From positions 930,001 through 994,000 of the forward strand of contig JARFIW010001188.1 in the NCBI GenBank assembly GCA_036346225.1: DNA of 64,000 nucleotides. Reading direction: 5' to 3'. The notes beneath the pieces were generated by a model, which worked only from the letters and a program-made list of their open reading frames with translations, ran no database searches and was not told the DNA's origin. Positions within the stretch are counted from its first letter, which is position 1. Each line of letters opens with the position of its first letter. The DNA comes from Platerodrilus igneus (taxonomy: Eukaryota; Arthropoda; Insecta; Coleoptera; Lycidae). Shown here piece by piece: positions 9,737 to 57,494 of this stretch. Position numbers and translations under genes: made by a program.

Positions 9737-10268
9737 TGTAGCGGATCACTACTACCGTGTTTCACTAATTTAAAACAAGTAATAACAAGAGTTTTTATTA
9801 CTCACTGTTCAGAAGTCTAATTAACAGTATATGCTTTATTTATAGATGTTTTCAGTCCAATTAACGATGAAACACTATCACACTAATGAATTTACAAGCA
9901 CTAATATCTTCTTAAACTAAATTCTTAACCATAGGTCTATTAACAACACTAACACACTATTTATTTATTACACTTTTGTCTATGTATGTATTCTACAAGC
10001 TGCATGTACATTAGACACGTTCACATAATATAACATTTATGTTTACTCTTGGACTTCCAAAAGCTCAACTATTTAACTTTACACGATATAATTTATATTC
10101 GACATTCTGATATAGACTGAACTTCTTTATTAGCAGTCTTATTTATACCCTGAATTAAAAGAATGATTCATACTCCAGTACTTGCTAGAAAATTCTTGGT
10201 CCCTGGAGAATATACGGTGCTTACGGCGTTTGTGTGTTTGAAGGGTTGCCTAATAGTAGCTCGCAACA
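9737..10268 (-). repeat. 3' LTR of the macrodomain-bearing Ty3/gypsy element
   Basis: On the minus strand this begins TGTTGCGAGC directly after a polypurine tract and ends GATCCGCTACA, which gives TG...CA ends and a length of 532 bp. It is clearly similar along its length to the solo LTR at 54316-57494, which supports both boundaries. Shared blocks include GTATGAATCAT, AATTCAGGGTAT and CGTGTAAAGTTA. A TATAAATA box lies at + 10140-10147 and an AATAAA-type polyadenylation signal near 9961. The 5' half of the element is missing, so no target duplication can be checked. Confidence 0.85.
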
Positions 10269-10281
10269 CTACCCCCTCTTT
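10269..10281 (-). promoter_or_regulatory. Polypurine tract
   Basis: AAAGAGGGGGTAG on the minus strand sits immediately before the LTR start TGTTGCG. It is the expected primer site for plus-strand DNA synthesis. The last codons of one reading frame (VLKRG, then TAG) overlap it, so the upstream ORF seems to end exactly at the LTR. Confidence 0.75.
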
Positions 10282-10437
10282 AAGACCGTTACGTCTCGTA
10301 ACTGTAAATACTTTTTGACGCCAATTTGATGACTGATGACGGTATCGGCAGCTATATCCTCTGGTGCATCCACCACTTCGTTGGAAATAACAGTTAACAC
10401 TCTTTTCTTGGTCTTGGTAAGCAACCGGTTGATAACA
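10282..10437 (-). pseudogene. Tail of the gypsy ORF after the macrodomain
   Basis: This short minus-strand segment between the macrodomain and the polypurine tract reads through in one frame as a charged tail with the blocks DAPEDIAADTVISHQIG and VKKYLQLRDVTVLKRG. The frame differs from that of the upstream macrodomain half, so there is a shift near 10440. I do not recognise a domain in it. Confidence 0.5.
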
Positions 10438-10870
10438 ACAGACAAGGACCTGGACATTGGTTCCCTGGAAAACTACTTCCAGCATATTTCAGACTATCCT
10501 CCAATCTAAGCGATCCAATTCACAGCCTAACTAGGGTACCGCTAATTTCGTTACTCCATTTTCATCATCTAAGCCTTAAGATTTAGCAAAGCCTCCCATT
10601 GGTGTCCATAACTAGGTCTCTGCCATAAAGAATTTTTGGTGACCAGATAGTAAACATAACGATTTGTATCCTGAAGGACCAAAGCTTTTCCTACAGTTGG
10701 CTGCTGTTGTACTAATTCATCCACACATCCAAACTTTTTCTTGAAAACAACAGCTATTCCTCTTGACATTTGCAGGTCCTGAGCTACGCAATGTGCAAGG
10801 GAATACTCTTCTGGTGCTCTAAACAGATCTTGCTGTTTTTCAACAACAACCCCAAATGTCACCTTAGCGG
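10438..10870 (-). pseudogene. OARD1/TARG1-type macrodomain fused to gypsy Pol
   Basis: Macrodomains of the TARG1 (OARD1) type bind ADP-ribose and remove it from modified acidic residues. The match covers the whole domain: QQDLF (in place of GDLF), YSLAHCVAQD, SRGIAVVFKKKFG, RYVYYLVTK, ENGVTKLAVP, LGCELDRLDW and NVQVLV, in the family's order and spacing over about 140 residues. The lysine of LVTK (codon near 10635-10637) and the aspartate of LDRL (codon 10513-10515) correspond to the two catalytic residues known in human TARG1. The first half is in the same open frame as the end of integrase (ORF 11045 down to 10569), so the domain was part of Pol rather than a separate gene. The copy is dead: a frameshift near 10570, a TAG before LGCELD and a TGA after WRIV. 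It sits where some retroelements carry env. Its role is unknown. Confidence 0.85.
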
Positions 10871-12245
10871 AACCACCATACGCCGCCATAAAACTCTCAA
10901 AATCTACATTCGGCTCGCGATTAATAACTTTTCGCACACCATTCTCATTATTCAAGTCCCCCTGGTTGTTGCCAGCATAAGATGTTAATCGGCCAAAGTG
11001 TAAAACTTTCGGTTTACCACGGGGAGATCTTCTGATCCGGTACACTACATCATTAATTCTTTTAACACTTCGTACGGGCCATCCTATTGTCTTTGTAATT
11101 TTGGCGACAACCCACGCTGTCTTTGTGGATTATACAACCACGCTAAATCTCCAGGTTGATAACCACCTTCTTGAGCTCTCGTGTCATATTGTCAATTCAT
11201 TCGATCGCTTACTGCCTGGATACTCTTTCGGACGTTTTCGTGAATGCTATTTGATCTTTCACGAAGCTTACTAACGTAATCTTCACCTGCGCTTTCTTTT
11301 CCAGGTTTAAATCCAAACTGAAGATCACATGGTAGCCGCAATTCACGTCCTAACATCACGCACGCGGGAGAGTATCCTCTGCTATCATGTACTGAAGATT
11401 GGTACGCCAGTAAAAACAAATGTAAATATTGATCCCAGTTTCGTTGATGTTCAGAGACAACTTTGGCTAGGTACTTTCCTAACGTCCTGTTCATTCTTTC
11501 AACCATTCCATCCGATTGAGGATGAAGTGGCGTGGTTCTAGTCTTTCTGATTCTAAGATTCTTGCAGACGTTTTGAAACAACGCTGATTCGAAGTTCCAA
11601 CCTTGATCGGTGTGTAATTCCAACGGAACTCCAAAGCAACAAAACAACTCCTCACTAGTACATCTGCAACCGTCTCGACTACTTGGTTAGGTATAGCATA
11701 TGCCTCCGGCCATTTGGTACAATAATCCATTGCAACCAAGATGTATTTATTTCCTTTTTCTGATTCAGGAAACGGATAAGCTATATCAATGGTTGCCCTT
11801 TCAAAAGGATTCCCCACGTTATACTGTCTCATTGGGGCTTTCCGTTTTGTAACCGGGCCATTTGCAGAGGCGCACAACTCACATTTTCGGCACCACTCCT
11901 TCACATCTTCTTTGCAGTTCACCCAATAGAATCTTTCTCTCACTCTTTCGAGAGTTCTTTTCACGCCAAAGTGCTCTCCGGAAATACCATCGTGCAAGTG
12001 CTGCAACACCTCCGGCACTCTGCCTCTCAGCACTATCACTTGAAGTCTCTTAGTGCTATCTTTACATTCCATGCGTCGTTTCAAGATTTTATTTTCAATC
12101 ACCAAGGAGTCCCACTGTGCTCAGTATGCCTTCAGGCTCCCACTTGAAATACTAATTTTTTCCCAAGCTGGTCGTTGTCCTCTACGTTTCAACTAAATAA
12201 TACGTCCCAATTCGGCGTCATTCTCCTGGTCTTCTCGTATTCATC
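10871..12245 (-). pseudogene. Ty3/gypsy Pol: end of RNase H/linker and integrase (412/mdg1-like)
   Basis: Integrase inserts the retroelement cDNA. From the N-terminal side (high coordinates) the order is as follows. A linker reads RGQRPAWEKIS and AYWAQWDSL (with one stop). A zinc-binding HHCC domain has His at residues 38 and 45 of the frame that starts at 12105, and CELC at 75-78. The first catalytic Asp lies in ATIDIAYPFP, and MDYCTKWPEAY follows. After a frameshift near 11640, LHTDQGWNFES carries the second Asp and HPQSDGMVERMNRT carries the catalytic Glu, 35 residues later (D-35-E). Two further breaks follow. The C-terminal tail YRIRRSPRGKPKVLHFGRL leads without a stop into the macrodomain. 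RT, protease and gag are missing; the fragment stops at about 12250, next to a plus-strand LINE piece. It resembles the 412/mdg1 branch by general pattern. Confidence 0.92.
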
Positions 12246-12260
12246 CGTTACCGTCATTCT

Positions 12261-12942: not shown

Positions 12943-13487
12943 AGGTATTGACTAATACATGTCTACAATAGATTTAATTAATTTACAAACGCAATTTCTT
13001 TATATTCCAATTATTTGTGTTTAATTATTTATTTAATTAAATTTGATGTGAGTATGTCGGTATTATACTTATGATACATTAAGGTTATTTATTGATTTGT
13101 TATTTTCTACTGTTGCTAAGTGTGATGTATAATAAAGAATATTTACATAATAAACCATTATTAATTTTTCTGTTTGCTCCCATCAATAAATTTATCTAAA
13201 AACTTATTTTCAAAACTCAACAATATGTATGAAACAGGTTGAATTAAAATTCATTTATTTACCATATATGCTTAAATGAATTTTAATTTAACCTGTTTCA
13301 TACATATTGTTGAGTTTCGAAAATAAGTTTTTAGGTCAATCCTAGAGTGTCACTATTTTGAATTTCACGCTATTAGTTATTGTTTTCATTAGTAGTCTCT
13401 AGAGGCGCCACCGGTTTTAGCCGCCATTGTTGCCCCCACTTTTTTACATTGAATTGGTGACTCTCTTACTGTATGTTCTTTTTGGTC
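12943..13487 (+). repeat. Dispersed repeat R1, copy 2
   Basis: Same orientation as 2516-3075 and about 545 bp long. Shared blocks include TGTGATGTATAATAAAGAAT, the 139-bp palindrome, and CACCGGTTTTAGCCGCCATT followed by TTACTGTATGTTCTTTTTGG. Small indels and substitutions separate the copies, so they are old. Confidence 0.85.
13196..13334. repeat. 139-bp palindrome inside R1 copy 2
   Basis: The outermost 16 nt of the arms (CTAAAAACTTATTTTC and its complement) are perfect inverted repeats. The remaining arm sequence (AACAATATGTATGAAACAGG and its complement, then TTGAATTAAAATTCAT) also pairs with few mismatches. The AT-rich centre is about 20 nt. The structure resembles a small MITE. No target duplication could be separated from the arms. 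Confidence 0.9.
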
Positions 13488-13875
13488 TGGTGTTTGCTCG
13501 ATTGCACGAGACTTTTGTAGAATACACTTCGGTTATGCAGGTTGCGTGTTTAACGGATTGCCTAATAGTTCGTAACAATATACTTATTTTGTATTATTTT
13601 CTCACTTTTGTTTTTATGCCACTAAGAATCCGATAGTGAATTTTTAACATGCTCTTCAAATGAGTAGTCGCACTCCTATTTTTCAGTCGGCATGTTCTGC
13701 AAAGAAAAACGAACTTTTTGTAGACAAGAAAGGTATGCCGCGTGAGCTATTTCAAAATATAGTGACAAAGAGATAAAAAACATTTTTGTTCAAAAAAATT
13801 ATCAACTGACTTTCTTATTAGTAAGATTTTATGGGCATAAACTGGAAGCTCATTGGACGTTTATTTTCTGAATAA
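13488..13875. other. Spacer without recognised gene
   Basis: A 69-codon frame at 13427-13636 starts inside repeat R1 and has no known resemblance. Nothing else was seen before the Harbinger fragment. Confidence 0.4.
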
Positions 13876-14390: not shown

Positions 14391-14439
14391 CAAAATTGCT
14401 TGCTATTTGTCTATATGGTAATATTGTGTATATTTGTAG

Positions 14440-16150
14440 TGTTGTGGAAAACAGTGTTGAGGCAAAAATAGGGTTGGGAGTTCAACTTAGGTTAGTAGCA
14501 GAAATGTTTTACTACTAGGGCGTAATAATCGAAGGTGTACATGTGCGAAGATAGTGTGCAGGCGAAAATAGTTTTGAGATTTCAACTCATGTTAGAAGTC
14601 GAATTACTTTACCGCTAAAACAAAATAATCGGAAGGGTACATGTGCGTAGATAGTGTTGAAACGAAAATAGTGTTAGATTTCAACTTAGGTTAGAACTCG
14701 AAATGTTTTACTACTAAAAGAGAATTATCGATTTGGTACATGTGCGAAAATAGTCTCAAGGCGTAAATATTTTGAGGTCTCAACTTAGGTTAGTATCTGC
14801 AATGTTTTACTACTATGACAAGTGTCGAATGGGTACATGTGCGAAAATAGGTTAGAAACCAAAATGTTTTACTACTAAGACGTAATAATCAAACGTGTTC
14901 ATGTACGAAGATAGTGTGAAAGCGTAAATAGTGTTAAGGTTTCAACTACGATATAATAATCGAAACGGTACATGTGCAAAAATAGTGTTTAGGGTAAAAT
15001 AGTGTTGTGGTTTCAACTTAGGTTATGAATCGAAATGTTTTACTACTGAGAAAGAATTATCAATCCGGTACATGTCCGAAAATAGATTCGAGGCAAAAAT
15101 AGTGTTGAGGTCTCAATTAAGTAGTATTCAAACGTTTTACTACAGTGACAAGATTCGAACCGGTACATGCGCGAAATTAGTGTTGAGGTTTAAAAGTGTA
15201 CGTGTGCAAGTATAGTGTGAAAGCGAAAATAGTGTTGAGGTTTAAACTTAGGTTAGAAGTCGAAATATTTTACTACTAAGAACGAATTATCGAATTGGTG
15301 CATGTGAGTTAATAGTGTCGAGGCGAAAATAGTGTTGAGGTCTCAATTTAGGTTAGTATTCGAAATGTTTTGCTACTGTGTCAGAAGTCAAACGGGTACA
15401 TGTGCGAAAATAGTGTTGAGGTTTCAACTTAGGTTAGAAGTCGAAATGTTTTATTACTAAGAAAGAATTATCGATTCGGTATATATGCAAAAATAGCGTC
15501 GAGGCGAAAATAGTGTTAAGGTATCAACTTACGTTAGTATTCGAAATGTTTTACTACTGTGACAGGAGTCGAACAGGTACATGTGCGAAAATAGTGTGGA
15601 GGTTTCAACTTAAGTTAGAAGTCAAAATGTTTTACTACTACGACGTATTAATCAAAAAAGTACGTGTGCGAAGATAGTGTAAAAGCGAAAATAGTGTTGA
15701 GGTTTAAACTTAGGTTAGAAGTCGAAATGTTTTACTACTAAGAGAGAATTATCAAATAGGTACATGTGCAAAAATAGTATCGAGCTAAAATAGTGTTGAT
15801 GACCCAATTTAGGTTAGTATTTGAAACGTTTTGCTACTGTGACAAGAGTTACACGGGTACATGTGCGAAAACAGTGTTGAGGCTTCAACTTAGGTTTGAA
15901 ATAGAAATGTTTTATTACTAAGAAAGAATTATCGATTCGGTATATATGCGAAAATAGCATCAAGGCGGAAGTAGTGTTAAGGTATCAATTTACGTTAGTA
16001 TTCGAAATGTTTTACTACTGTGACAAGAGTCGAACGGGAACATGTGCGAAAATAGTGTTGAGGTTTAAACTTAGGTTACAAGTCAAAATGTTTTATTACT
16101 AAGAGAAAATAATCGAATCAGTACATGTGCAAAAAAAGTGTTGAAGCAAA
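14440..16150. repeat. Minisatellite core, unit about 100 bp, about 17 copies
   Basis: Successive copies of GGTACATGTGCGAAAATAG start near 14537, 14637, 14736 and 14833, which gives a period of 97-100 bp; some units are shorter (about 64 bp). Each unit also carries AACTTAGGTTAGAAGTCGAA and ATGTTTTACTACTAAGA. There is no coding potential. Confidence 0.92.
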
Positions 16151-16167
16151 AATACATTTTGTTGCAA

Positions 16168-16288
16168 GCCCTGAAACGTCATTGTGCCGAAACATATTTG
16201 CGCCGAAACATCCCTGAGCCGACCGTCCCTACGCCGAAACGTCCTTGCGTCGAAACAGCCTCGCTGAAACGGCTGTGTGGAAACGTCG
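16168..16288. repeat. Right arm: about 8 degenerate 16-bp repeats, inverted
   Basis: Unit TGCGCCGAAACRTCCC, the reverse complement of the left-arm unit. It ends with GGAAACGTCG at 16288, after which sequence resembling Harbinger transposase resumes. Confidence 0.88.
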
Positions 16289-16650
16289 TAAATCTTTGCA
16301 AACAGCGTGAGACCAAGAAAAAGACGGTTTGTAGATGTATATTGTTGGAAAGCAAGGTTAGTAGTTTTTTTGAAGAAGATGTATGTCTCATACCTCCATA
16401 CAAAGATAATAGCAATGTATGTAGGAAGCAGTAATTATTTAATCATAACATTCATCTACTAGAGTGGTGACTGAGAATGCTTATAGTTTACTCAAAAAGA
16501 AATTTTTTAAGTTTAACGGTTTTGATAATGCAGATATTTTACAATATTTCAGTGTGTGATAGCTGCCACTGTATTGCATAATATTTGTTTGATGAACAAA
16601 GAAGAAATAAACTTCGAGTTTGAGAAGAAAGTACCCGAGTGAGTTTGTTG
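16289..16650 (+). pseudogene. PIF/Harbinger transposase, C-terminal fragment
   Basis: The recognisable blocks are HSSTRVVTENAYSLLKKKFF (from about 16451), which matches the 'R..VE.AFG.LK.RF' region holding the last catalytic acidic residue of Harbinger DDE transposases, and VIAATVLHNICLMNKEEINF (from about 16557), which matches the conserved 'i.a..vLHNi' block. The segments are in different frames. A stretch ending in ATTTCAG between them could be an intron end, but no donor was identified. The frame ends at 16641. Confidence 0.75.
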
Positions 16651-16836
16651 AAGCAACAACACAAAATTTAAGAGGTATTGTACCAGATAATTACCACGAA
16701 ATGAGAAGAAATATTTCAAAGAGTAGTTGATTTGTAAATATATATTTTACAGAAAAGAATTTTTTTTTCCTGAGTATAGTAATAAAGGTAAGGCAAGTTG
16801 ATTTATATTAAAGTAGTACCTAATAAAGCGAAATAT
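16651..16836. other. Boundary between Harbinger fragment and satellite
   Basis: AT-rich, with no feature seen. The satellite begins abruptly at about 16837. Confidence 0.5.
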
Positions 16837-18619
16837 TCAACCCTTTCTACTCCTGCCGGAGGTTGGTAACTTTTTCCTAAGATCTTGGTATTGCAGCTAA
16901 CCGTTGTTAGTAACAATTCAAACTAAACACTGAAAGCATTCAAAAATCGAAAATTTAATTATGTAATTTGATTTGCAGGTTTCGAACCTTTCTACCTCCT
17001 CCGGAGGGTTGTTAATTTTTGCTAAGGTCTAGGTATTGCAACTAACTGTTTTTGGTTACAATTGAAGCCAAAAACTGAAAACATTCAAAAATCGAAAAAT
17101 TAATTATGTAATTTGAATTTCCGGTTTCGAACCTTTCTACCCCTTCCGGAGGGTTGGTAATTTTTTTCTAAGCTCTTGGTATTGCAACTAACCGTACTTG
17201 GTCACAATTGAAACTAAACACTGAAAACTTTCAATAATCGAAATTTTAATTATGAAATTTGAATTGCTGTTTTGAACCCCTTCTACTCCTGCCGGAGGGT
17301 TGTAATTTTTTCCTAAGATCTTGGTATTGCAACCAACCGTTCTTGATCACAATTGGAACCAAACACTGAAAACTTTTACTAATCGAAGATTTTATTGTGA
17401 AACTTGTATTGCCGTCTTTAACCTCTTCTACTACCGCCGGAGGGTTGGTAACTTTATCCTAAGGTTTTGGTATTGCAAGTAAGCGTTCTTGGTTACATTT
17501 GAAACCAAATACTGAAAACTTTCAAAAATCGAAGATTTTATTATGAATCTTGAATTGCTTTCTTCGATCCTTTCTACCCGTGCCGGAAGGTTGGAATTCT
17601 TTTCCTCAAATCTAGGTATTGCAACTAACCGTTCTTAATAACAATTGAAGCCAAACACTAAAAAATCTGCAAAAATCGAAAATTTTATTTTGAAATTTAA
17701 ATCACCGCCTTCCACCCTTACCACCTTCGCCGGGAGGTTGGTAATTTTTTTTAAGGACTTGGTCACAATTGAAACCAAACACTGGAAACTTTCAAAAACC
17801 GGAAATTTAATTATGATATTTAAATTGCCGTTTTTAACGCTTCTTCCTTTGCCGGAGGTTTGGGAATTTTTTCCTAAGGTCTTGATATTGCAACTAACTG
17901 TTCTTGGTCGCAATTGAAGCCAAACACTGAAAACATTCAAAAATCGAAAATTTAATTATGTAATTTGAATTGCCGGTTTCAAACCTTTCTACCCTTTTCG
18001 GAGGGTTGGTAATATTTCTTAATGTCTTGGTATTGCAACTAATCGTTCTTGGTCGCAAGTAAAGCCAAACACTGAAAACTTTTGATAATCGAAAACTTTA
18101 TTAAAAAAATGGAACTATCGACTTCGATCCTTTCTACCCCTGCCGGAGGGTTGGTAATTTGTTCCTAAGGTCTTGGCATTGCAACTAATCGTACTTGGTC
18201 ACAATTGAAACAAAACCATAAAAACCTTCAATAATCGAAATTCTAATTATTAAATTTGACTTGCCGTTTTTGACTACATCTACTACAGCCGGAGAGTTGG
18301 TAAGTTTTTCCTAAGGTCTTGGTATTGCAACTAAACATTCTTGGTCACAATTGAAGCCAAACACTAAAAACTTTCAATAATGGAAGATTTGATTATGAAA
18401 TTTATATTGCCGTCTATGACCCCTTCTAACCCCTGCCGGAGGGTTGGTAATTTCTTTCTAATGTCTTGGTATTGCAACTAAGCGTTCTTGGTCACAATTC
18501 AAACCAAACACTAAAAACTTTCAACAATGCAAGATTTGATTATGAAATTTGTATTGCCGTCTATGACCCCTTCTACACTGCCGGAAGGTTAGTAATTTTT
18601 TCCTAAGCTCTTAGTATTA

Positions 18620-21600
18620 CAACTAACCGTTCTTGGTCACAATTGAAACCAACACTGAAAACTTTGAGTAATCGAAAACTTAATTATGAAATTTGAATTG
18701 TCGATTTCGACCCCTTCTCCGTCTGTCGGAGGGTTGATAATTTTTTCATAAGGTCTAGGTATTGCAAGTAACCGTTTTTGGTCATAATTGAAACGAAACT
18801 CTAAAAATTTTTAATAATCGAAAATTTTATTATAAAATTTGGATTGCCGTCTTCGACCTTTCTACACCTGCCATGGTTGGTAATTTTACCTAAGGTCTTG
18901 GTATTGCAGCTAACCGTTTTTGGTCACGATTGAAATCAAACACTGAAAAATTTCAATCAAAAATTTTATTATGAAAATAGAATTGCCGTTTCCGACCCAT
19001 TCTGCCCCTGCCGGAGGGTTAGAAATTTTTCCCTTAGCTTTTGGTATTACAACTAACCATTCTTGTTCACAATTGAAACCAATACTAAAAACTTTGAGTA
19101 ATCGAAAATTTAATTATGAGGTTTAAATTGCAGATTTCGACCTCTACTACCTCTGCCGCATGGGTTGGTAATTTTTTCCTAAGGTCTTGGCTTTGCAGCT
19201 ATCCGTTTTTGTCAAAATTGAAACCAAACACTGAAAATTTGAGTAATCAAAAATTTAAATATGAAATTGGAGTTGCCGTTTTCGACTCCTACTTTTGCCA
19301 AAGGGTTGGTAATTTCTTCCTAATGTCTTGGTATTGCAACTAACCATTCTTGGTCACAATTAAAACCAAACAATGAAAACTTTCAATAATGGAAGATTTG
19401 ATTATAAAATTTGTAATACCGTCTTCCCCTGCCGGAGGGTTGGTAATTTCTTCCTAAGGTTTTGCTAACGCAAATAAATGTTGTCGGTCACAATTGTAAC
19501 CAAACACTGAAATCCTTTAGTAATCGAAAATTAAATTATGTATTTTGACTTGCCGTTTTCGACCCCTTCACCCCTGCCGGAAGGTTGGTAATTTCTTCCT
19601 AAGTTCTTGGTATTGCAACTAAACGTTCTTGGTTACATTTGAAACCAAACACATAAAACTATAAAAAATTGAAGGTTTTATTATGAAATTTGAATTGCCG
19701 TCTTCGACAACTTCTTCACTGCCGGAGGGTTGGTAATTTTTTCTTAAGTTCTTGGTATTACAACTAACCGTTCTTGGACACCATTGAAACCAATACTGAA
19801 AACTTTGAATAATCGAATATTTAATTATGAAATTTAAATTGCCGATTTCCACCTCTTCTACCTCTGCCGGAGGGTTGGTAGTTTTTTCCTAAGGACTAGG
19901 TATTGCAACTAACCGTTTTTGGTCACAATTAAAATCAAACACTGAAAACTTTTAATAATCGAAAATTTTATTATGATTTTTGAATTGCCGTCTTCGACCC
20001 ATTCTGCCCCTGCCGTAGGGTTAATAATTTTTTCCTTAGCTCTTGGTATTACAACTAACTGTTCTTGGTCACAATTGAAACCAATACTGAAAACTTTGAG
20101 TAATCGAAAATTTAATTATGAAATTTGAATTGCAGATTTCGACCTCTTCTACCTCTGCCGGAGGGTTGGTACTTTTTCCTAAGATCTAGGTATAGCAACT
20201 AACCGTTTTTGGTCACAATTGAAACCAAACTCTGAAAACTTTCAATAATCGAAAATTTTATTATGAAATTTGAATTGCCGCTCCGACCCCATCTGCCCCT
20301 GCCGGAAAGTTAGCTATTTTTTTCTTAGCTTTTGGTATTACAACTAACCGTTCTTGGTCACAATTGAAACCAACACTGAAACCTTTGAGTAATCGAAAAC
20401 TTAATTATGAAATTTGAATTGTCGATTTCGACCCCTTCTCCGTCTGTCGGAGGGTTGATAATTTTTTCATAAGGTCTAGGTATTGCAAGTAACCGTTTTT
20501 GGTCATAATTGAAACGAAACTCTAAAAATTTTTAATAATCGAAAATTTTATTATGAAATTTGGATTGCCGTCTTCGACCTTTCTACACCTGCCATGGTTG
20601 GTAATTTTACCTAAGGTCTTGGTATTGCAGCTAACCGTTTTTGGTCACGATTGAAATCAAACACTGAAAAATTTCAATAATCAAAAATTTTATTATGAAA
20701 ATAGAATTGCCGTTTCCGACCCATTCTGCCCCTGCCGGATGGTTAGAAATTTTTCCCTTAGCTTTTGGTATTACAACTAACCATTCTTGTTCACAATTGA
20801 AACCAATACTAAAAACTTTGAGTAATCGAAAATTTAATTATGAGGTTTGAATTGCAGATTTCGACCTCTACTACCTCTGCCGCATGGGTTGGTAATTTTT
20901 TCCTAAGGTCTTGGCTTTGCAGCTATCCGTTTTTGTCAAAATTGAAACCAAACACCGAAAATTTGAGTAATCAAAATTTAAATATGAAATTGATTGCCGT
21001 TTTCGACCTACTTTTGCCAAAGGGTTGGTAATTTCTTCCTAATGTCTTGGTATTGCAACTAACATTCTTGGTCACAATTAAAACCAAACAATGAAAACTT
21101 TCAATAATGGAAGTTTGATTATAAAATTTGAATACCGTTTCCCTCCAGCGAGGGTTGGTAATTTTTCCTAAGGTTTTGTAACAAATAAATGTTTGGTCAC
21201 AATTGAACCAAACACTGAAACTTTGTAATCGAAAATTAAATTATGTATTTTGACTTGCCGTTTTCGACCCTTACCCCGCCGGAAGGTTGGTAATTTCCTA
21301 AGTTCTTGGTATTGCAACTAAACGTTTTGGTTCTTTGAAACCAACACTAAACTTAAAAATTGAAGTTTTATTTGAAATTTAATTCCGTCTTGACAATCTC
21401 ATGCCGAGGTTGGAATTTTTCATAATTCTTGGTATTAATAACTTTTGCGACACCTTAAACCAATCTGAAAATTTGATAATGATTTTAATTATGAAATTTA
21501 AATTGCCATTCACCTCTTTACCTTCGAGGTTGGAATTTTTCATAAGGAAGTTTAATAACGTTTTGGTCCATTAAAATCAACCTGAAACTTTAATAATGAA

Positions 21601-47516: not shown

Positions 47517-48530
47517 CATCACATTTCAACAAGGAGTAAAAACATCCACCGCGTTAGTACAAAATAAAGACAGTTATGCCAATACAACAATTTTAAACTC
47601 AAACGATTAGCCCATAGAACTATCATTGACAAACCCAATAGACATAGAAGAAGTAAATTTCAGCGAGATGGAAATCGACGAAAACTATGAAAGCGATTCC
47701 AACCCTACAAGACATGATAGAATGTTAAAAGAAAATTTAATTAACCTTCGACTTATGTTTCGAATACCGAAATATATTTCACTGTTAAGAAATATCTTTA
47801 ACTTTCACCAACACCGTCAAACATAAAATAGAATTAACAGACGATAAGCCAATTTTCACCAAAGCATACAGACTACCTCAAGCAAGTCAAGAAGAAGCAG
47901 ATAAACAGGTAGCAGATCTATTAAAGCAAGATATTATCCAACATTCAAACTCACCATGGAGCAGCCCTGTATTAATAGTACCAAAGAAGTTAAATGCCTC
48001 AGGCAAACGCAAGTATATATTGGTTATAGATTACAGAAAACTAAATTAGAAAACAGTAGACGATAAATACCCGCTACCCAATATTACGGAAATCTTGGGC
48101 AAATTAGGAAAGTGTTAATATTTTTCGACATTAGACCTCGCCTCAGGATATCACCAAGTAGAGATGGACGAGAAGGACACAACCAAAACAGCTTTTAGTA
48201 CACCTAGAGGACATTATAAATACCGTTTGGATTAAAGAACGCACCCGCTACTTTTCAAAAAGTAATGGACAACATTTAAGAAGGATACACAATGGAAAAT
48301 GCCTTGTATACTTAGACGACATTATCGTATACTCAACATCACTGACTGAACACGTCGAACGATTACGAGAAGTTTTTGAACAACTACAAAAAGCTCATTT
48401 TAAAGTGACTTTCTACCAAAAGAAGTAGCATTTTTAGGACACATAATAACCCCACAAGGAGTTATGCCAAATTCAGGCAAAACGAACGCAGTACTAAATT
48501 ACCCCCTACCCAAAACTAATAAAAAGCTTC
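47517..48530 (+). pseudogene. Ty3/gypsy reverse transcriptase fragment
   Basis: The RT of LTR retrotransposons is recognisable across about 300 codons. In order: [60 protein letters not shown] (first catalytic Asp), [24 protein letters not shown] (catalytic YLDD at 48309-48320) and EVAFLGHIITPQGV. At least four in-frame stops or shifts break it (after YRKLN, after LGKLGKC, after YRLD and near 48410). The fragment has no protease before it and stops before RNase H. Its left end coincides with the end of the satellite. The pattern is of the 17.6/297 kind. It is a different family from the element at 9.7-12.2 kb as far as overlap allows. Confidence 0.93.
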
Positions 48531-49038
48531 ACAACTTTAACATTGTTGGTTGTTCAAGCTACTCAAATTTAGTTTAATTAATTTAATTAGTGAAAGTAAT
48601 TGAAAAGAAATTTTGATTGTAAAAAGCGTTAATGCATATAACGCAGCCATTTGTTAATTTAAATTGTAATTTCTGCTTTAAATAAATTTGTTAAAAGAGT
48701 TTTTGGAAGAAGCTTTTTTAAAAAGTCGCTCCAAGAGGCCAAATCTAAATCGCTCCCAAAAAAAAAATATGTAATGCTAAAATGGCAACACAAACGTGGG
48801 ATTTGACAAAGTAAGACCGCAACGTGCGGAGATATACAAATAACGCCGCAGCGTAGGACTCGATTTTTTCTGTATACTTTAATCTTGTTATAGAACAGTT
48901 TGTTCCTATTTGTTCTCGATAATGAAAATTTTTAAAAAATTTTGTTCGTATCTCGAACCTACACTTACAATTATTTTATTTTTATATTCAGCTCTGTTCC
49001 GTGCTGTTTGTGAATAATTCATTTTCAAAATTTTTGAA
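48531..49038 (+). other. Leader region upstream of gag (possible LTR/5' UTR)
   Basis: Noncoding sequence between the RT fragment and the gag start. It contains CGCTCCAAGAGG and short repeats of the type AACGTGCGGAG / CAGCGTAGGACTC. I cannot place LTR ends or a primer-binding site with confidence. Confidence 0.4.
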
Positions 49039-57005: not shown

Positions 57006-57494
57006 CCGTCAAACACACAAGCTGCATAACCGAAATGCATTCTCCAGGAATCGAGAATGTTCCAGCACATACCAGAGTATGAATCATCTATTTAATTCAG
57101 GGTATATATAAGACCACTGATGAAGTACGGTCTTAGTCTATATCCAAATGTCGTTTATAAGTCATACCGTGTAAAGTTAGTTATTTACGCTTTTGAAAGT
57201 CCTATAGTAAATATAAATTTGTGTTATGTGAACGTGTATATTGTACCGCCAGCTTGTACATAAATAGACAAAAGTGCAATAAATAAATTATGGTAGTGTT
57301 GAGAAGACTTATGGTTCAGGATTTAGTTTAAGAAGATCTTAGTGCTTGTAAAAAGCATTAGTGTGATAGTGCGAACTGTATACATCCATAAATAAGGCAT
57401 ATACTGTTAATTAGACTTGTGAATAGTGAGTAATAGAGACTTTTGTTATTACTTGTTCTAAATTAGTGAAACACGTTAATAGTAGCCCGTTATA

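Follow-up and report, generated by a model that had tools for sequence, protein, structure and literature searches.

TARG1/OARD1 (C6orf130), the terminal ADP-ribose protein glycohydrolase, is a cellular macrodomain enzyme that cleaves ADP-ribose from glutamate and aspartate and, through Lys84, from DNA (PMC8501950). Long terminal repeat (LTR) elements are known to capture domains. Chromoviruses carry a chromodomain, a histone reader, behind the C-terminus of a gypsy integrase (PMC3605345); orchid Ty3/gypsy elements have captured an AlkB-type RNA demethylase, likewise a host-type eraser but of another chemistry, in a plant and in an additional open reading frame (ORF) (PMC9289625); and other accessory domains have also been captured by LTR elements (PMC6338049). 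Here we describe a beetle Ty3/gypsy lineage whose Pol has, behind the integrase, a C-terminal TARG1-type macrodomain and, in almost every case, a CCCH zinc finger after it. It came to light in a 64,000-nt stretch of the Platerodrilus igneus genome, hereafter the window (GCA_036346225.1, contig JARFIW010001188.1, positions 930,001 to 994,000). A gypsy element with an added domain at its integrase end is a known arrangement; what varies here is that a predicted eraser of TARG1 type and a CCCH finger take that place.

A first-pass annotation of the window, made from its letters, had proposed that this element carries the macrodomain and knew of no described family with such a layout. Our literature search among open-licence PMC papers likewise found no described retrotransposon Pol with a macrodomain. 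The novelty needs one qualification: fish epsilon-like endogenous retroviruses have macro-domain ORFs (PMC4977317, citing Basta et al. 2009). Those too are LTR elements with a macro domain, but they are vertebrate, the domain sits in an additional ORF, and the passage describing them states no fusion to integrase.

The window copy lies on the minus strand. The N-terminal zinc-binding part of its integrase and the start of the core (11491..12120; Integrase_H2C2, 7.8e-19; rve, 2.5e-5, below the cut-off) occupy a frame of their own, broken off from the rest, and the second half of the core is read from the ORF at 11192..11686 (rve, 1.2e-5, below the cut-off). The join itself is intact. As the first-pass annotation had claimed, one uninterrupted frame runs from the integrase tail into the first half of the macrodomain: ORF 10569-11129 encodes 186 residues (open from 11129 to 10572), of which residues 22-48 match the integrase C-terminal domain (PF22938, Integrase_p58_C, 1.9e-7; 10986..11066) and residues 98-182 match human TARG1/OARD1 (PDB 2eee, 1.4e-20; 10572..10829). 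The linker between them (10830..10985) stays in the same open frame and measures 41-52 residues in 11 relatives. The second half of the macrodomain (10426..10566), recovered by tblastn with family proteins whose matches span 10566-10333, does follow in another frame, but it also contains two in-frame stops that had gone unmentioned. Equivalents of both TARG1 catalytic residues can be read, the lysine of LVTK at 10637-10635 and the aspartate of LDRL at 10515-10513, in agreement with the annotation.

Downstream, an open frame at 10488-10168 takes in the macrodomain end and a CCCH zinc finger of spacing C-x7-C-x5-C-x3-H (10336..10392), which scores weakly by itself in a Pfam scan, is conserved in the family and had been overlooked. 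A polypurine tract (10271..10283) then precedes the 532-bp 3' LTR (9737..10268, TGTTGCG...CTACA), which has matches downstream of the macrodomain in open genomic copies and starts about 158 bp past the domain, close to the 160 bp first estimated. Integrase in the order H2C2, rve and C-terminal domain, RNase H ahead of it in the relatives P0113 (with reverse transcriptase, RT) and P0109, and, immediately past pol, a polypurine tract and an LTR whose ends are of the TG..CA type identify the element as Ty3/gypsy. Beyond position 12,255, none of 210 sampled proteins, which include the RT and RNase H of relatives, has a match adjoining the element, and no RT is left beside it. With its several frames and its stops, the copy is therefore broken and truncated upstream. 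A 68-bp blastn match (72%) to the 5' end of the LTR at 13516..13580, also on the minus strand, may be a remnant of the 5' LTR start, and inspection of the sequence around the element revealed no clean target-site duplication.

The macrodomain is a regular part of this element. We searched the source genome (2.71 Gb, 1723 contigs) with the 186-residue window piece, which reaches across the join, and scored 150 of 13,663 first-look candidates. All 150 matches cover both the integrase tail and the macrodomain; 124 are free of stops, and 10, by our own table count, lie in open frames of at least 900 residues. A second search used integrase as the query (36,776 candidates, 150 scored), and we took the stretch downstream of its 20 best loci, leaving out the window copy and one locus sampled previously. 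Macrodomain and finger both match downstream in 20 of 20. Copies lacking the domain, which by the first-pass annotation's own criterion would have refuted it, thus appeared neither among the 150 scored matches of the first search nor among these 20 loci. Of 70 loci, one being the window copy, 64 have a macrodomain free of gaps and stops, and every one of these open copies has an LTR match downstream of it, at a median of 158 bp (range 0-195). The joined copies and the LTRs behind them therefore place the macrodomain within the element and not by chance beside it, as had been argued from the window; the TARG1 match there, at E 1e-20, also speaks against chance.

Two further observations concern these copies. 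In the subfamily nearest the window copy (L002-L031), a common frame break lies just ahead of the integrase tail, and the open frame starts identically in 25 of 30 loci; unless this is an assembly error, the subfamily is numerous as if mobilised in trans by other elements or read through by frameshifting. A fly OARD1 query gave 150 scored matches at 46-53% identity, about 40 of which, compared by eye, coincide with element-copy loci from the integrase-macrodomain search. Element copies thus swamp the search, and the host OARD1 gene could not be singled out among those matches.

Relatives extend well beyond this genome. Three protein searches, one of them contributing its best 120 of 1584 matches, gave proteins of at least 11 named beetle species as well as many metagenome proteins of unassigned species; the counts given here for relatives describe the sample of 210 proteins. 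Integrase, macrodomain and finger motif occur together in one record in eight beetles (Molorchus, Aromia, Exocentrus, Callosobruchus, Leptinotarsa, Gonioctena, Diabrotica and Harmonia) and also in metagenome proteins, while records from Brassicogethes, Pyrocoelia and Holotrichia have the macrodomain with no integrase detected and no finger motif, the Pyrocoelia record opening with the final residues of the integrase end. The 945-residue P0113 combines, in a single frame, an RT end with RNase H, integrase, macrodomain and finger; P0109, P0110 and P0115 run from RNase H through integrase and macrodomain to CCCH; and P0114, from Callosobruchus, spans RT through macrodomain. Among the 141 of 210 proteins that match the integrase end, 107 have the macrodomain and 34 lack it. 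Of the latter, 33 end 2-65 residues past integrase, some perhaps cut at contig ends, and one bears an unrelated 206-residue tail.

P0084 from Leptinotarsa, named OARD1-like, carries an integrase tail and is, judged by its sequence, a misnamed retrotransposon piece, so that at least one OARD1-like beetle record is explained in this way. P0085 from the leafhopper Macrosteles, also named OARD1-like, sits among the element rows of the macrodomain tree and may be another. In Aromia, P0139 has a SAP domain at its N-terminus ahead of Gag, its gene model ends in macrodomain and finger, and the SAP domain recurs in many Aromia records.

CCCH fingers form a class that often binds RNA. Of the 28 non-redundant family proteins, 23 reach at least 45 residues past the macrodomain, and 21 of these have a motif of the form C-x7-9-C-x4-6-C-x3-H; the other five stop too early to be counted. 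The macrodomain tree places the two exceptions, P0012 and P0087, in one group with the leafhopper P0085 and P0006, the last being too short to show a finger. Against the zf-CCCH cut-off of 20.5 bits, P0069 equals the threshold and the remaining scanned members score lower.

By fold and by sequence the nearest solved structure to the macrodomain is TARG1. An AlphaFold model of one genomic copy (L033), built on an alignment of 36 sequences, has a predicted local distance difference test score of 92-98 over the macrodomain block and 45-66 over linker and finger, so the finger fold is of low confidence. Searching with this model, Foldseek returned TARG1 entries first (4j5s; root-mean-square deviation 1.0, 45% identity) and then DarG (5m3e), and a family profile run against PDB sequences ranked TARG1 (7e-65) ahead of the DarG entry 5m31 (1e-13). 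Together with the 2eee match at 1.4e-20, the Foldseek result rejects a chance domain match. The element domain shares with TARG1/OARD1 the fold, the lysine (Lys84) and aspartate, and the LAHCV, YLVTK and GCGLD blocks, and differs from it in being part of a retrotransposon Pol. Where host-type OARD1 has a GA or GK loop, the element loop is mostly SR (18 of 28), and the family has typical Trp, Arg, Met and Glu positions of its own. DarG, a DNA ADP-ribosyl glycohydrolase antitoxin, is the next-best match, with no toxin partner seen; the NCBIfam DarG model gave 45.3, 41.2 and 34.8 bits in three proteins, far under its equivalog cut-off of 250. On these likenesses of sequence and model we predict that the element macrodomain is an ADP-ribosyl hydrolase. 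The Pfam Macro model (PF01661, cut-off 22 bits) was reached by none of six Pol-type proteins scanned (P0069, P0113, P0109, P0114, P0139, P0126), although P0012 carries a precomputed PF01661 annotation. This standard model thus misses most scanned members, which may be why the layout has been overlooked so far.

Trees of both domains place the macrodomain-bearing elements together, in line with a single acquisition. In an integrase tree of 42 rows (95% identity cut; 14 with the macrodomain, 21 without, and 7 undecided and uncounted), all macrodomain-bearing rows fall on one side of a single branch with support of 94/84, found in 95% of 200 bootstrap trees; the window core fragment at 11192..11686 groups with them. 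The nearest macrodomain-less row, P0168, comes from a 1.2-kb contig, stops 8 residues past integrase and may be truncated. A macrodomain tree of 60 rows, for which P0071 was removed from the 28 non-redundant proteins and others were added, puts 34 element rows on one side of a branch with support of 93/91 (94% of bootstraps). Outside that branch are host-type OARD1 sequences, labelled by us and partly from unnamed records, together with further insect macro proteins and one from a giant-virus-like contig; the root was set for drawing only.

Some macrodomain proteins outside the lineage merit mention. A search of viral contigs as a source of relatives found a single match, a TARG1-type macrodomain protein on IMGVR_UViG_3300010233_000005 (L001, about 512-1033 on the plus strand); the contig has the look of a giant virus, the protein falls among host-type sequences in the macrodomain tree, and viral contigs were set aside as a source. 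P0091, P0095 and P0103 combine a Cys-containing start, a coiled-coil-like stretch and a TARG1-type macrodomain, and the last part of P0103 weakly matches GDSL lipase. They give the impression of non-LTR retrotransposon ORF1 proteins, and macrodomain capture may therefore have happened more than once. In P0107, from Rhopalosiphum padi, a TARG1-type macrodomain is followed by a CCHC zinc knuckle in a gag-like arrangement.

The fusion is apparently under purifying selection. The ratio of nonsynonymous to synonymous differences (pN/pS), a comparison that the first-pass annotation had suggested, was computed over 70 loci picked by protein match score and then filtered for open frames, a choice that biases it low; pooled over pairs, the macrodomain gave 0.30 within L002-L031, 0.20 within L032-L071 and 0.25 between the two, which is still far below 1 despite the selection of loci. 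The integrase part gave 0.13-0.16 (36 of 70 loci usable) and the finger 0.12-0.21 (65 of 70). All 64 open genomic copies retain both the lysine and the aspartate, the latter also catalytic in TARG1. For a more divergent set we took the 99 family proteins that span 120 or more of the 136 macrodomain positions, which reduce to 28 at below 90% identity. In this set the lysine is kept in 26 of 28 (arginine in two), the aspartate in 25 of 28 (glutamate in one, deleted in two), and the LAHC, GIA and YL-TK columns in at least 26 of 28.

Retroelement integration yields gapped junctions with unjoined ends. We propose, at a probability of roughly 0.55 and from sequence and model, that this beetle Ty3/gypsy lineage carries at its Pol end a predicted hydrolase that clears PARP-made ADP-ribose at the integration site. 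Integrase, or an uncleaved Pol end, would carry the macrodomain to the intasome and so deliver it to the gapped junctions left by strand transfer, where PARP1-type enzymes act. There it would strip the host's ADP-ribose marks from DNA ends and proteins, and their removal could let gap repair complete or blunt PARP-based repression; the CCCH finger might contribute RNA or DNA binding. PARP1-3 modify DNA ends in vitro (PMC8501950), and in cells PARP1 places ADP-ribose on single-stranded telomere DNA where Okazaki fragments are unligated, a mark that TARG1 takes off (PMC11102865). Mobile elements, many of them of the gypsy superfamily, tend to rise in Drosophila mutant for parp-1 (PMC7712786); PARP activity may thus work against elements of this sort. 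TARG1 chemistry, the gapped junctions, delivery by fusion to integrase and the parp-1 data thus favour an eraser at the insertion site. The first-pass annotation's interpretation of the element is supported by the copies and relatives, and the role that it suggested against PARP signalling would be of this kind.

The strongest competitor, which we nonetheless rate unlikely, is that the macrodomain reads the mark: it would bind ADP-ribosylated chromatin or DNA breaks and steer integration, with catalysis secondary. By analogy this fits the position of the domain, since the chromovirus chromodomain, thought to steer integration, occupies the same place in Pol. A chromodomain-type tail as such is rejected, Pfam scans of four window pieces and six family proteins having found no chromodomain. 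The reader interpretation stays alive because a few relatives (P0111, P0115, P0080 and P0007) have lost one or both catalytic residues; against it stands the persistence of lysine and aspartate in every open genomic copy and in 26 and 25 of the 28 divergent proteins, as a pure reader would not need the lysine.

Somewhat less probable still is a hydrolase with an earlier task: ahead of integration, while in the cytoplasm or virus-like particle, it would act on RNA or on Gag and Pol proteins modified by antiviral-type PARPs, with the finger as a tether to genomic RNA. The finger after the macrodomain in 21 of 23 relatives, with a pooled pN/pS near that of integrase, is what such a tether would lead one to expect. 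The domain is, however, fused to integrase rather than Gag, one clade (P0012, P0087) has the macrodomain without the finger, and to our knowledge insects have few PARPs and no ZAP. We consider it improbable that the macrodomain has no ADP-ribose function and persists within the Pol fold as a tail for structure or solubility. Of 141 sampled proteins reaching the integrase end, up to 34 do without it (some perhaps contig-cut); against this rival stand the conserved LAHC, GIA and YL-TK columns and the aspartate that 25 of the 28 divergent proteins retain. At the window locus alone, a processed copy of host OARD1, which the first-pass annotation had raised as a possibility, or an assembly join might be suggested by the broken window copy and the likeness to a cellular enzyme; both are virtually ruled out by a join common to 150 of 150 genomic matches, 20 of 20 integrase-chosen loci and joined records in eight named beetle species, and by the separate macrodomain branch (93/91).

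Several points weigh against an eraser acting at the insertion site. The window copy is itself broken. The 20 integrase-chosen loci each carry two to five one-base length changes relative to an open copy, which break their macrodomain frames in the assembly. Across 90 loci such differences are absent in 57 and number at least two in all 20 of these; they lie mostly at short homopolymer runs, in combinations that differ among near-identical copies, as expected of either long-read consensus errors or recombination, and the broken frames are compatible both with consensus error and with real defect. These 20 loci also offer only 15 variable macrodomain sites, with a weak excess at third codon positions, and the choice of loci for pN/pS favours a low ratio. 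The catalytic residues do change, two of the three divergent proteins altered at the aspartate being from Diabrotica; with the lysine changed in 2 of 28 and the aspartate in 3 of 28, some lineages may have a binding-only role. Branch support in both trees is good yet under the tool's starred level. Finally, the Drosophila parp-1 study concerns transcripts and not integration; ten further raised elements in it were non-significant after correction, and its authors allow an indirect cause (PMC7712786).

If the eraser interpretation is right, ADP-ribosylation of integration junctions would be an unrecognised barrier to retroelement insertion, one that beetle elements met with an enzyme of TARG1-DarG type and a CCCH finger. 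An abundant element lineage would then harbour a natural fusion of integrase to an ADP-ribose eraser. This hints that PARP signalling, or ADP-ribosylation of DNA, may be a limiting step of retroelement integration in insects, and the eraser question is open to direct test with one small purified domain. The combined scenario, in which the macrodomain was acquired once, before the lineage spread through several beetle families, acts as an eraser at the insertion site and overcomes a barrier of ADP-ribosylated junctions, is tentative, and we put its chances short of even.

The window holds other repeats besides this copy. Another LTR, apparently solo, lies at 57006..57492 on the plus strand; it belongs to a related subfamily and is about 79% identical to the first, and none of the 210 sampled family proteins matches beside it. 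Remains of another gypsy-type RT region, matching P0193, P0116 and P0114, occupy 47807-48574 on the plus strand. Two tandem satellite arrays, with units of about 100/181 and 145 bp, fill 14432-19993, and a 68-bp inverted repeat at 13190-13340, 94% complementary around a 15-bp loop, resembles a miniature inverted-repeat transposable element.
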